Shown here one piece after another: positions 45,880 through 50,293 of a stretch of DNA of 50,482 bases. Under the pieces are notes generated by a model that saw nothing but the letters and a program-made list of their open reading frames with translations, searched no databases and was not told the DNA's origin. Source of the stretch: an uncultured Bacteroidales bacterium. Lineage in GTDB: Bacteria > Bacteroidota > Bacteroidia > Bacteroidales > Muribaculaceae. The DNA is taken from contig CASENC010000013.1 of the NCBI GenBank assembly GCA_949289215.1, forward strand, positions 1 through 50,482, given 5' to 3'. The number at the start of each line of letters is the position of its first letter. The first letter of the stretch is position 1. Made by a program: the position numbers and the translations under genes.

Positions 45880-46902
45880 ATGAAACATTTTAACTACTTA
45901 CTGTTGGCGGCATCACTGCTCATTGCAGGCAACAATGCAGAGGCAGCCGAAGGTATCACTACCCTCGACTTGACAAAGCCGCTTAATCCCGAGCAACTTA
46001 ACTTCGATGAAGACGGAGCTTGGGATGGAGTATATAAAGGTGAAGATGGCGTACAAGAATACTTTGAAGCACAAATCTTCATTATGAGCCATATGGCAAG
46101 TTATGGTGGCACTGTATGGGACGGATTTGCACCGTGTAAAAGCACAGTTATGACCGACAACGCTTCATACGTTGTTGGTTGCATGGCCGGGGGAGGCATT
46201 GCCCTTGATGACAGCGGAGATGTGACAACCGACGATAACGGGAATGTCGGCATTGATGCAACAGTTCCATATCTTGTGGGATATTACAACACAATGGGAA
46301 CCGACTTGCCATCGTGCCAAATATTTTTCAACGATGGATTGCAGCATGAGGTTGTAGGCGTATATGTCACTAATTTCCCCACAGCGTTCTATAACTGCTT
46401 ATACGGTAACGGATATACCAGCCCGTTTGTCAATGGCGACAAGTTCACGCTCACAATTCATGGTGTGGCTGCCGACCAAACCGAAAAAACGGTAGAGGTT
46501 GACCTTGTCAAATATGACGGCGATATGTTTCAAGCAATCAGAAGCTGGAAATATGTTGACTTGTCATCGCTCGGTGCAGTGGAATCGATATATTTTACAA
46601 TGAGCAGTACCGACGCAGGCGAATGGGGGATGAACACGACGGCAATGTTCTGCCTCGACAAGTTGATGGTAAAAACCGAAGGAATGGCAAGCATGAGCAA
46701 CGCAGAAATGTCTGCCGAAGCTATCACCTACGATCGGGCAACAGCCACAGTGACTTTGCCGCAAAGCACATTTGCCATCATTTACAATGCTGCAGGGCAA
46801 AAAGTCATGGCTACCGAAGGACAACAAATTTCAGTAGCAGGCCTCGAAAAAGGCATATATTTTGTGAAAACAGCAACCAGGAGTTTGCGATTCATAAAAT
46901 AA
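45880..46902 (+). CDS. Secreted DUF4465 protein with C-terminal sorting-like domain
   Basis: A 340-residue exported protein (signal peptide to about residue 22, AEAAEG). The central 200 residues match the DUF4465 pattern: FDEDGAWDGVY at the start, then GFAPCKST, a VTNFPTAFYNCLYGNGY segment in the middle, and a VESIYFTMSSTDAGEWGMNTTAMFCLDKL end, giving a beta-sandwich with likely Ca2+-binding Asp-rich loops. The last 45 residues (FAIIYNAAGQKVMATEGQQI to LRFIK) resemble a type IX secretion sorting domain. It may be a surface or secreted carbohydrate- or protein-binding factor; the exact role is unknown. It is a single gene. Confidence 0.82.
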   Translation: MKHFNYLLLAASLLIAGNNAEAAEGITTLDLTKPLNPEQLNFDEDGAWDGVYKGEDGVQEYFEAQIFIMSHMASYGGTVWDGFAPCKSTVMTDNASYVVGCMAGGGIALDDSGDVTTDDNGNVGIDATVPYLVGYYNTMGTDLPSCQIFFNDGLQHEVVGVYVTNFPTAFYNCLYGNGYTSPFVNGDKFTLTIHGVAADQTEKTVEVDLVKYDGDMFQAIRSWKYVDLSSLGAVESIYFTMSSTDAGEWGMNTTAMFCLDKLMVKTEGMASMSNAEMSAEAITYDRATATVTLPQSTFAIIYNAAGQKVMATEGQQISVAGLEKGIYFVKTATRSLRFIK

Positions 46903-46964
46903 CTAACAAAGCTTTATATAACTAACGACGAAATACATTTAACATAACTTTGTATAACTTCTGC

Positions 46965-47003
46965 TGGAGCTGTCATGTTGTGAAACAAGACAGCTTCTTT
47001 TAT
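46965..47003 (+). terminator. Terminator of the DUF4465 gene
   Basis: A 7-bp stem AGCTGTC/GACAGCT (46968-46974 with 46989-46995), loop 14 nt, followed by TCTTTTATA. Confidence 0.7.
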
Positions 47004-47218
47004 ATATTCCCCCACCCCCCCCGATTCCCCAAAGGGACAATCATAAGTTAGGTGTGTATTTGGTCATTTGGTAATGCAATTTTACAATAGTCACATAACT
47101 TGCATTTATGTGTGACTGGAACAGGGAATAAGAGTACCTTTGTATGTAGTTAAGGCACAGCCCACATCTATGGTATCTGATATGTAGGAGTTTGCTTTGA
47201 AAAAGTGGCGGTTCTATA
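47004..47218. other. Left edge of the AT-rich accessory block
   Basis: A C-tract (47009-47013, A, 47015-47022) marks a sharp change in composition: codon choice and base content to the right are clearly AT-richer than in genes to the left. The rest of this stretch is non-coding on visual inspection; a 103-codon minus-strand frame across it (to 47352) has no protein-like features. No att-like or tRNA sequence was found here. Confidence 0.5.
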
Positions 47219-47248
47219 GTTGTTTCTTGCTGAAATGTAGTATCTTTG
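47219..47248 (+). promoter_or_regulatory. Promoter of the structured leader and accessory operon
   Basis: GTTG at 47219-47222, an 18-nt spacer, then TATCTTTG at 47241-47248, an exact TAnnTTTG. Transcription would start near 47252-47255, about 260 nt before the first gene, which leaves room for the micro-ORFs and rod-shaped RNA. Confidence 0.6.
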
Positions 47249-47252
47249 CGAC

Positions 47253-47284
47253 ATGAAACATTAAATGAATAGCTAATGAAATAA
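47253..47284 (+). promoter_or_regulatory. Three consecutive micro-ORFs in the leader
   Basis: ATGAAACATTAA (47253-47264), ATGAATAGCTAA (47265-47276) and ATGAAATAA (47276-47284) are arranged head to tail; the second stop and third start share a base. They begin at or near the predicted transcription start. Such runs can couple translation to RNA folding, as in antibiotic-responsive leaders. They could also be chance in AT-rich DNA. Confidence 0.35.
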
Positions 47285-47305
47285 AAGTTTAACAAGACAT
47301 ATTGG

Positions 47306-47487
47306 AAAAAGAAGTGTTTGCTTCTTGCTTGATGTATTCTGAAAATCGCCAATTAGAGGAATATAACCATCACAGCATGAAAGTGAATGCTTGCACCATA
47401 AGGTGTGGGCTTCCCTTGTTTGTATGGTTATAGGTGTTTGGCGATACCTCAGAATAGCAATCAAGGTTTGGCTCACACCTTCTTTTT
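47306..47487 (+). ncRNA. Rod-shaped structured RNA, about 182 nt (leader or 6S-like)
   Basis: Five nested helices: 47306-47317 with 47475-47487 (9 bp plus 3 bp around a bulged C), 47328-47333 with 47460-47465, 47335-47342 with 47449-47456, 47346-47352 with 47438-47444, and 47362-47370 with 47424-47432. The apex holds two small hairpins (374-378 with 387-391 and 394-397 with 402-405, adding 47000). Forty-two base pairs are perfect Watson-Crick, far beyond chance for one ordered series. The outer helix ends in CTTCTTTTT, like an intrinsic terminator. It lies between the promoter and the first gene of the operon (ATG at 47516), so it is either a cis-acting leader or a free RNA. A closing stem, an unpaired central region and a long upper stem recall 6S RNA. 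Confidence 0.6.
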
Positions 47488-47515
47488 GTGGTATGGCTGC
47501 AAAAAGATTTGTATA

Positions 47516-48127
47516 ATGAAAATAAGTAGATTAAGAGATAAAATATCTCTCCCGGAAATGTTGGCGGGAATTGCAGTAACCAATGCACAATCTAGCAATT
47601 CCCAAAAAGAGCTTGAGGTTTTGATTATGTTGTATAACAAAATTCAAGAAGCTTCAAGCCAGTTGTTAACAATATCTGATTATAATATAGTAGGAAGTGC
47701 CTATTGTTTAATGGGGTCATATCCCTTATTTATGAATAATGAAAATGCTCGTCGGGTTATCGCAGATAATGCTTTCTATTGTTTGTCAAGAGCTATAGAA
47801 AAAGAGCAAAGCAAGGCTATTTATATAAAACGCTTATCAGTTCTTGCATATTTTCATAAAGATTTCTACTATACTATAGCTAATGCTATGAGAATATCTG
47901 ACAGTGAATCATTCTTCCAAAGGGTGCCACTAATTGTTAAAACAAATCAATATTATTATGACATTGCATATCATGATTTTTTGAAGGTAGGTCAAAATAA
48001 TTATCCTGAAAAAATAGGAGAATTATATGAATTGGTACGGCGTACAAACAAGTGTAGTGCCCAGAAAGGCAAGGTATGCATAGACAAAATTATCAGTTAT
48101 TTAACATCTGTATATCAGCAATATTAA
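47516..48127 (+). CDS. Unknown accessory protein A, helical
   Basis: A 203-residue protein with no signal peptide and no motif I recognise. It is largely helical, beginning MKISRLRDKISLPEMLAGIA, with Tyr-, Asn- and Ser-rich helices, and looks cytoplasmic. The ATG at 47516 is used because the longer frame (from 47405) runs through the RNA rod. Codon use is strongly AT-biased, unlike the genes to the left. It is the first of five same-strand genes with gaps of 9 and 12 nt followed by overlaps of 4 and 13 nt, so it very likely belongs to one operon. Function unknown. Confidence 0.7.
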   Translation: MKISRLRDKISLPEMLAGIAVTNAQSSNSQKELEVLIMLYNKIQEASSQLLTISDYNIVGSAYCLMGSYPLFMNNENARRVIADNAFYCLSRAIEKEQSKAIYIKRLSVLAYFHKDFYYTIANAMRISDSESFFQRVPLIVKTNQYYYDIAYHDFLKVGQNNYPEKIGELYELVRRTNKCSAQKGKVCIDKIISYLTSVYQQY

Positions 48128-48757: not shown

Positions 48758-49081
48758 ATGGACATATATGATATAAATGATAGATTTCCATTGAATGGCA
48801 ATTGGAAATATAAAGGACAAACAGTCTTTGAGGTTTTGCAGAAAGACTCTGGGTACATTAAAGATTTAATTAGATTGCACCCCACTTTCTGTCTTTCTGA
48901 GAAATGCTTGGTTGAAGCGCAACATCTGACCAAGGGATTTTATGATGAATGGGTTAAGCCCAAACATATTTCCCGTAATAATTTATTAGAAAGCTTACGT
49001 TCATACGGAGTTCCTTATAACTTTGATTTTAACAATGATGAGATTGTAAAATTGAATATGCTAAAATTATCAAAAGGGTGA
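48758..49081 (+). CDS. Unknown accessory protein C, 107 residues
   Basis: A 107-residue protein with an acidic N-terminus (MDIYDINDRFPLNGNWKYKG) and basic, aromatic middle section. One short motif, IRLHPTFCLSEKCLVEA, places two cysteines five residues apart, without a metal-site pattern. No signal peptide. The TGA stop overlaps the GTG start of the next gene (GTGA), so translation of C and D is coupled. A role as an accessory or regulatory partner of D is inference only. Confidence 0.65.
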   Translation: MDIYDINDRFPLNGNWKYKGQTVFEVLQKDSGYIKDLIRLHPTFCLSEKCLVEAQHLTKGFYDEWVKPKHISRNNLLESLRSYGVPYNFDFNNDEIVKLNMLKLSKG

Positions 49082-49446
49082 TATCAATCATTTTAGTTGA
49101 AAGAAAAGGAAAGCACCTTTGTTTTATCATACATACGGGAAGCACTTGCAGTCTGATAGACAGTAATGTGGTTGAATATTTCAAGGATATTGTAACTCCA
49201 GTAGGGGATTATAACATCAGTGGAATAGATGGAACCAAGCGCAAGGTTGATGTGGTTACATTGCCTTTCTCTTTTGAGGGTCAGTCATATAGCCCTAAAT
49301 TCTGTGTGAAGCCACTTCTTGAAGCCTTTAAGGACATTGAAATTGAAAATGGAATACAGGTACATGGGCTGCTTGGGACTGACTTCCTGATGGAAAACAA
49401 GTGGATTATAGACTTTGATAAATTAGTAATTTTATGTATAACATAA
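49078..49446 (+). CDS. Retropepsin-like protein lacking the catalytic aspartate
   Basis: A 122-residue protein with the single-domain retropepsin layout: a flap region, the IIHTGSTCSLI active-site loop at residues 17-27, and the closing GLLGTDFLMENKWIIDFDK near 98-116. In active retropepsin-like aspartic proteases the loop reads D-T-G-S/T; here position 19 is His, so the catalytic Asp is lost while the rest of the loop and the GTDFL motif are kept. It has no signal peptide. It is therefore likely a pseudoprotease that binds peptide or partner proteins, or one half of a hetero-oligomer. It starts at GTG in overlap with gene C. Confidence 0.75.
   Translation: MISIILVERKGKHLCFIIHTGSTCSLIDSNVVEYFKDIVTPVGDYNISGIDGTKRKVDVVTLPFSFEGQSYSPKFCVKPLLEAFKDIEIENGIQVHGLLGTDFLMENKWIIDFDKLVILCIT

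Positions 49447-50250: not shown

Positions 50251-50293
<43 letters not shown>

Follow-up and report, generated by a model that had tools for sequence, protein, structure and literature searches.

The window analyzed here is a stretch of 50,482 nucleotides from an uncultured Bacteroidales bacterium (Muribaculaceae; contig CASENC010000013.1), and the parts of the leader and the first gene described below lie on its + strand. Positions 47219-47515 hold the leader of a gene cluster whose first gene (47516-48127) encodes a protein of 203 aa that matches no Pfam family at E values up to 1. From 5' to 3', the leader carries a candidate promoter with the -7 box TATCTTTG (47241-47248; Bacteroidota TAnnTTTG), from which the transcript would start at about 47255, two micro-ORFs that overlap by one base (AUG AAU AGC UAA at 47265-47276 and AUG AAA UAA at 47276-47284), a GACATAT motif (47296-47302), a long rod fold and a U-run (47480-47487). 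A second short ORF (47493-47516; AUG GCU GCA AAA AGA UUU GUA UAA, MAAKRFV) begins in the segment termed E below and ends in a stop codon that shares bases with the start codon of the first gene (UAAUG), an arrangement suggestive of translational coupling. Among related loci, L117 has MATKRKMQ followed by a stop; the genes of L139, L167 and L180 are fused to a MAAKR start. Further downstream, a 24-base stretch resembles the 3' end of a tRNA (CCAGTTCGATTCCTGGTGGCACCA, 50270-50293) in a window that contains no tRNA gene. It has near copies at C34 and C42 of the same genome, and an integration site may mark the end of the gene cluster.

Filtering 197 instances of the leader by flank length and shared 8-mers left 128 homologues, 118 of them with all the segments defined below. 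The TAnnTTTG box is present in 90 of the 128 (10.1 ± 2.7 when shuffled) and in 31 of 58 held-out loci, ACATA in 60 of the 128 (15.2 ± 3.2 when shuffled), and a T-rich run in 119 of the 128 (50.1 ± 4.9 when shuffled) and in 58 of 59 held-out loci. Comparison among homologues thus shows both the predicted promoter and the U-run.

Regarding the micro-ORFs, ATG triplets cluster 60-74 nt 5' of the rod helix P4 across the 128 loci, and 55 loci have one there; AUG AAA UAA occupies this conserved place in the window, 69 nt 5' of P4. An in-frame stop follows within four codons in 50 of these 55 (the two remaining frames give 11 and 13). The first set served to choose this interval; among held-out loci, the stop was found in 22 of 23 (3 and 8 in the other frames), while ATGs elsewhere gave 5, 6 and 3 of 17 by frame. 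By frame, ATGs 75-110 nt 5' of P4 gave 19, 12 and 21 of 52, those on the 3' side 19, 28 and 37 of 139, and those 30-50 nt 5' of P4 gave 9, 4 and 2 of 20. The micro-ORFs have 0-3 codons after the AUG, are often AUG-UAA or AUG-ACA-UAG with a GCCU or GCCA context on the 5' side, and with so few codons contain no control codons for a regulated amino acid. They occur in 15 of 23 loci from the family and relatives, in 32 of 80 loci found by pattern, and in 4 of the 25 that came from the phylum search (other orders and classes). Comparison shows the micro-ORF with its frame-specific stop to be real in the window's kin.

Rod fold and rival helices

For the leader (47219-47515), the predicted fold is a long rod of -88 kcal/mol (z -4.32); none of 200 dinucleotide shuffles was as stable. 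Its predicted helices are P3 (47334-47342 with 47449-47456), P4, whose 5' strand AUCGCCAA (47345-47352) pairs with UUGGCGAU, P5 (approximately 47357-47379 with 47416-47432) and the apical A:B described below; the 3' strand of P4 lies with its GGY/RCC flanks in GGU-UUUGGCGAU-ACC (47433-47448). We followed covariation in two alignments: A3, with 100 nonredundant homologues, and A6, with 68 rows added after A3 and drawn largely from new loci. Two-sided changes occur at all 34 modelled rod pairs in A3 (583 two-sided cells, 142.8 ± 12.8 when shuffled) and at 28 of the 34 in A6 (410 cells, 108.5 ± 10.3 when shuffled); since both alignments were fitted to the rod, these counts lean towards it. In A3, 93.4% of the rod cells are paired, against 38-45% after sliding, and in either alignment P3 and P4 reach 96-98% pairing.

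To these counts we added a duplex test that compares the pairing energy of each segment with its own partner and with permuted partners, the permutation ignoring relatedness. It was run on the 100 rows of A3, eight of which lacked a segment, was rerun on the remaining 92, and was applied to 59 of the 68 later rows, as nonredundant held-out loci. P3 gave z -36.0 (100 rows) and -28.5 (held out), and P5 gave -32.2 and -25.8. One apical pair is U-G in 72 of 98 rows of A3 and in 54 of 67 held-out rows of A6, which places the structure on the + strand. The rod at 47219-47515 is confirmed as a real structured RNA, and comparison shows its predicted helices P3, P4, P5 and A:B. The original prediction is supported in that a structured leader lies between a promoter and a gene (box TATCTTTG, gene at 47516), its helices change in a compensatory manner, with the outer arm as the weak part, conserved micro-ORFs precede it, and the design is attenuator-like.

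Within the leader, four segments compete for partners. Segment 3, or B (GGUGUGGGCUU, 47402-47412), has two complementary partners: segment 2, or A (47383-47397), with which it forms the apical hairpin, and segment 4, or C (47470-47479), which directly abuts the U-run and would provide the 3' strand of a B:C terminator stem. A can in turn pair with segment 1, or D (47309-47328); when B:C was forced in folding, the 5' arm folded on itself through D:A. Column counts gave 64 two-sided cells for B:C (18.7 ± 3.6 when shuffled) and 75 for D:A (35.4 ± 4.1), and these are unfitted counts because the model behind the alignments contained neither of the two helices. The number of B:C pairs with a two-sided change was unexceptional (8 against 6.7; 78 of 500 shuffles reach 8).

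In the duplex test on 100 rows, 92 rows and the 59 held-out loci, respectively, D:A gave z -7.7, -7.5 and -5.2, A:B gave -16.9, -14.9 and -10.2, and B:C gave -18.9, -18.1 and -10.0, against -1.7, -1.3 and +0.3 for the control D:B and -1.8, -1.9 and +0.1 for the control A:C. Exploratory controls went down to z -2.4, with P3a:P5a at -3.9, and held-out controls ranged from -1.7 to +0.7. Comparison thus shows the rival helices D:A and B:C as predicted pairings, and the set D:A, A:B and B:C without D:B or A:C is the scheme known from transcription attenuators, in which pairing runs 1:2, 2:3 and 3:4 but neither 1:3 nor 2:4. Two further pairings were considered. The 5' half of C could pair with segment E (47488-47497) after read-through, a weak candidate hairpin 3' of the U-run (z -6.6 on 118 exploratory rows, -2.7 on the 59 held-out loci). 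A small hairpin inside D, P0, had looked conserved by eye and was dropped because it did not clearly exceed shuffles: it occurs in 61 of 128 loci (49.2 ± 5.0 when shuffled), and its five-pair stems number 14 against 15.3 in shuffles.

A family across Bacteroidota

BLAST with the leader gave one match in its own genome and matches in 17 of 99 relatives. The covariance model R1, built from 17 sequences that all have the AUCGCCAA helix, was run on three sets of sampled genomes. At E up to 0.001 it matched 183 of 247 in the window's family and 26 of 296 from the phylum; for the order, with E up to 1e-5, the figure is 102 of 295. These samples include the window's own genome and the genomes that supplied the R1 sequences, and since the counts rest on R1, diverged members have surely been missed. 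R1 found at least 11 matches in the richest genome and at least 5 in the window's own, numbers that are lower bounds because scoring was limited to 9-11 candidates in each genome. Scanning named genomes with a DNA pattern gave at least 119 matching stretches, and the matches listed include Bacteroides, Prevotella, Butyricimonas, Dysgonomonas, Chryseobacterium and Tenacibaculum; six named genomes, picked for holding a match, have 6, 8, 4, 1, 3 and 6, Bacteroides stercorirosoris being one of those with 6. Matches were also seen in metagenome-assembled genomes labelled Lentisphaerae and Kiritimatiellae (L112 and L164), which could reflect transfer or misbinned contigs.

Rfam families were sought with cmscan over the whole window, where none matched at gathering scores, in 46900-47700, where matches up to E 10 were all chance-like, and at 20 diverse related loci, where none matched up to E 0.5. 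The RNA belongs to a large structured family that has no Rfam match. The literature searched, including passages of PMC6414381, PMC7366714, PMC8040213, PMC11697453, PMC9723704 and PMC2864571, contains no description of the element, and of six taxon terms sought in PMC2965389 none is present. Flavo-1 (RF01705), Bacteroidales-1 and Bacteroides-1 are structured RNAs of Bacteroidota according to the part of PMC2864571 consulted, and they gave no match at the same thresholds (E up to 10 in 46900-47700, up to 0.5 at the 20 loci). Bacteroides thetaiotaomicron has FopS and GibS, which resemble the leader in being a multi-copy RNA family of Bacteroides and are set apart by description only, FopS being free sRNAs of ~65-70 nt in the consulted part of PMC11697453, where a six-member paralogous sRNA family is also mentioned. 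In the parts consulted of the respective papers, the GUCCY-hairpin (Table 1 of PMC2864571) and unnamed candidates of PMC8040213 and PMC9723704 are candidate structures of Bacteroidetes, some of them before genes; the palindromic candidates mentioned in PMC8040213 (106 and 132 bp) lie close to TonB and TPR genes. One of these may be a fragment of the present RNA family, part of which is perhaps already listed unnamed, for example in the supplementary candidate lists of PMC8040213 and PMC9723704, as the GUCCY-hairpin or within the sRNA family of PMC11697453.

The P4 helix varies in sequence across the family. Other loci have different complementary helices in its place, for example ACUGGUA/UACCAGU or UCUGACAA/UUGUCAGA, and these exchangeable helices sit between GAAA and GGY...RCC flanks. 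GAAA was counted in 59 of 106 P4 calls, a rough tally in which the motif finder was shifted on some rows. The GGY and RCC flanks may form a local hairpin (PH) in the fold with D:A and B:C: PH has 10 two-sided cells against 1.3 ± 1.1, with a slide of +3 columns scoring nearly as high, and this support does not draw on the regular-expression motif tally, in which shifted matches were allowed. In one copy from the window's own genome (L082:2843-3007) the P4 strands are swapped, with UUUGGCG on the 5' side and CGCCAAA on the 3' side.

The element is consistently placed ahead of a gene. Of 121 loci in the nonredundant union, 118 have the next ORF on the strand of the element, as do 55 of 57 held-out loci, 74 of the 75 covariance-model matches with an ORF (78 matches in all) and 104 of the 113 pattern matches with an ORF (122 in all). 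Upstream ORFs are on the + strand in 74 and on the - strand in 44 of the pattern matches (29 and 23 held out). The RNA is thus tied to what lies downstream of it. Three IMG/VR contigs (L215, L216 and L217) also carry the element, each time 5' of a same-strand ORF.

A proposed switch and its alternatives

We propose, with a probability of about two in three, that the leader is a transcription attenuator with two rival folds, lying 5' of the gene cluster. In one fold, the rod, the 5' and 3' arms would be joined by P3, P4 and P5 and capped by A:B; C would then be left without its partner B, and RNA polymerase would read through (ON). In the other, D:A would free B, and B:C, placed before the U-run, would act as an intrinsic terminator (OFF). 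The B:C helix is GC-rich and ends at the U-run, and it is the likely terminator, although its loop of ~60 nt is long for one. Folded alone, the stretch of the window from B to the U-run gives a terminator-like hairpin of -34.0 kcal/mol, and the stretch from D to A folds at -22.8 kcal/mol. Since B:C excludes the apical A:B, the rod should be the read-through state, and we infer that termination occurs and that the rod is ON; this assignment relies on the GC-rich B:C at the U-run, whereas the outer arm D:C pairs the U-run itself with A residues. In 96 of 100 rows the rod has the lowest energy, and the two-hairpin fold is a median of 10.5 kcal/mol worse (window: rod -64.0, two hairpins -58.6 kcal/mol). 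Energy alone favours the rod, so OFF would need an input or kinetic trapping of D:A, the earliest helix to form during transcription.

In Bacteroidales, a ribosome held at the AUG-stop micro-ORF, ~25 nt 5' of D, would block D:A and so favour the rod. With D kept off A by the ribosome or another factor, A:B would form, the rod would zip and the genes would be read; with D free, D:A and then B:C would form and transcription would stop. Translation is probably an input in the window's kin. The original suggestion of a translation-coupled attenuator is partly supported, namely in its attenuator-like design and its conserved micro-ORFs. The micro-ORF is mostly confined to the kin, was found at only 4 of 25 loci of other orders and classes, and cannot serve as the input throughout the family. 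The other candidate sensor would be P4, a conserved module flanked by GAAA, GGY and RCC.

Ribosome-mediated amino-acid attenuators (trp, his, ilv) consist of four segments that pair 1:2, 2:3 and 3:4, with a U-run after the fourth. The leader resembles them in this pairing scheme, in the U-run and in the short leader ORF of part of the family. Unlike them, its ORF has 0-3 codons, lacks control codons and is often absent, the genes are non-biosynthetic, and the 2:3 helix continues into a rod that contains the conserved P4 module. Bacteroid-trp (RF01692), an attenuator found in Bacteroidota, was not among the Rfam matches here.

One could argue that a ligand or a protein bound at P4 selects the fold, with the micro-ORF as a lineage-specific addition. 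Such an orphan riboswitch or protein-binding leader would fit the conserved flanks around a P4 helix that takes many sequences, the rarity of the micro-ORF outside the window's kin and the diversity of the downstream genes, which suits a global signal. Like riboswitches with a terminator platform, the leader would combine a conserved core with a choice between terminator and antiterminator; unlike in them, the core helix P4 is freely replaceable. As the gene context points to no ligand or protein and the GGY/RCC hairpin has modest support, we regard this explanation as possible but rather unlikely. The original prediction had instead taken the closed rod itself, through its outer arm D:C, as the terminator. 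The minimum-energy fold does close the rod beside the U-run, and D:C cells are 86.6% (A3) and 90.4% (A6) paired; both alignments, however, were fitted to D:C, its letters are nearly constant, and two-sided change in A6 is found at 3 of 7 pairs. The duplex test gave D:C z -2.4, -4.3 and -3.4 on overlapping exploratory sets and +1.0 on held-out loci, which leaves the outer arm unsupported. With A-U pairs running into the U-run and a GC-rich, covarying B:C abutting it as the alternative, a D:C terminator is improbable, and that part of the original prediction gives way to B:C.

Its other proposal was a free 6S-like RNA, in the present terms an RNA merely sitting before genes. Rod shape, own promoter and U-run would agree with it, and the rod of ~180 nt recalls 6S RNA and 6S-flavo (RF01685). 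But the Rfam scan suggested along with the original prediction returned no 6S or other family, one genome has at least 11 copies, the following gene is almost always on the same strand (118/121), and the leader position and rival helices point to a switch; we consider a free RNA very unlikely. Least credible of all is an element acting as DNA, such as a mobile inverted repeat with no RNA function. It would be multi-copy, lie before unrelated genes and occur in a few viral contigs, as is the case here, whereas strand-specific U-G pairs, two-sided changes in every helix and a promoter and U-run in fixed order speak against it. As to the impression that part of the sequence was familiar from Bacteroides mobile elements, relatives occur in many Bacteroidales and in the three IMG/VR contigs, but blastn of the window's own leader found no match in phage and plasmid collections.

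Downstream genes and a possible regulon

Pfam was searched with 110 proteins, namely 109 of the 118 encoded by same-strand downstream genes plus the window's own. They matched 88 Pfam families, among them LRR_8 (8 proteins), LRR_5 (7), TonB plug (7), CarbopepD_reg_2 (6), DNA methylase (4), sigma-70 region 2 (2) and WG repeats (2), and many of the others look like lipoproteins or secreted proteins, as judged by eye from their N-termini. Defence was rejected as a general theme of these genes: PADLOC on the same 110 proteins was led by methyltransferase models in 4 (best 25 of 106 families).

Taken together with the proposed attenuator, these genes raise a wider and more tentative idea, to which we give about one chance in three. 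The leaders may be a phylum-wide class of regulatory RNA under which dozens of otherwise unrelated genes, for surface and uptake functions, DNA modification and sigma factors, form a single regulon. One global signal would act on it through the switch from rod to two hairpins: in Bacteroidales the translation state, read at the AUG-stop micro-ORF, or else a ligand or protein that acts at P4. If so, attenuation by a single RNA family would control diverse accessory and surface genes of Bacteroidota, and a family carried, often more than once, by about three quarters of the genomes sampled from one gut family would have escaped Rfam. It would offer a handle on how the expression of acquired and surface genes is decided, and a bacterial sensor consisting of an AUG-stop micro-ORF would be unusual.

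At eight loci from one family of another order (L054, L055, L059, L066, L067, L075, L077 and L078), the leader lies ~200-380 nt 5' of genes resembling TonB receptors, with an opposite-strand ORF ~110-180 nt upstream of it. In the window, the gene at 49078-49446 gave a weak, below-cut-off match to Asp_protease_2 (E 5e-4), with HTGS in place of the usual DTG(S/T), and a similar ORF follows the leader in L018 (DTGA) and L004 (DTGS).
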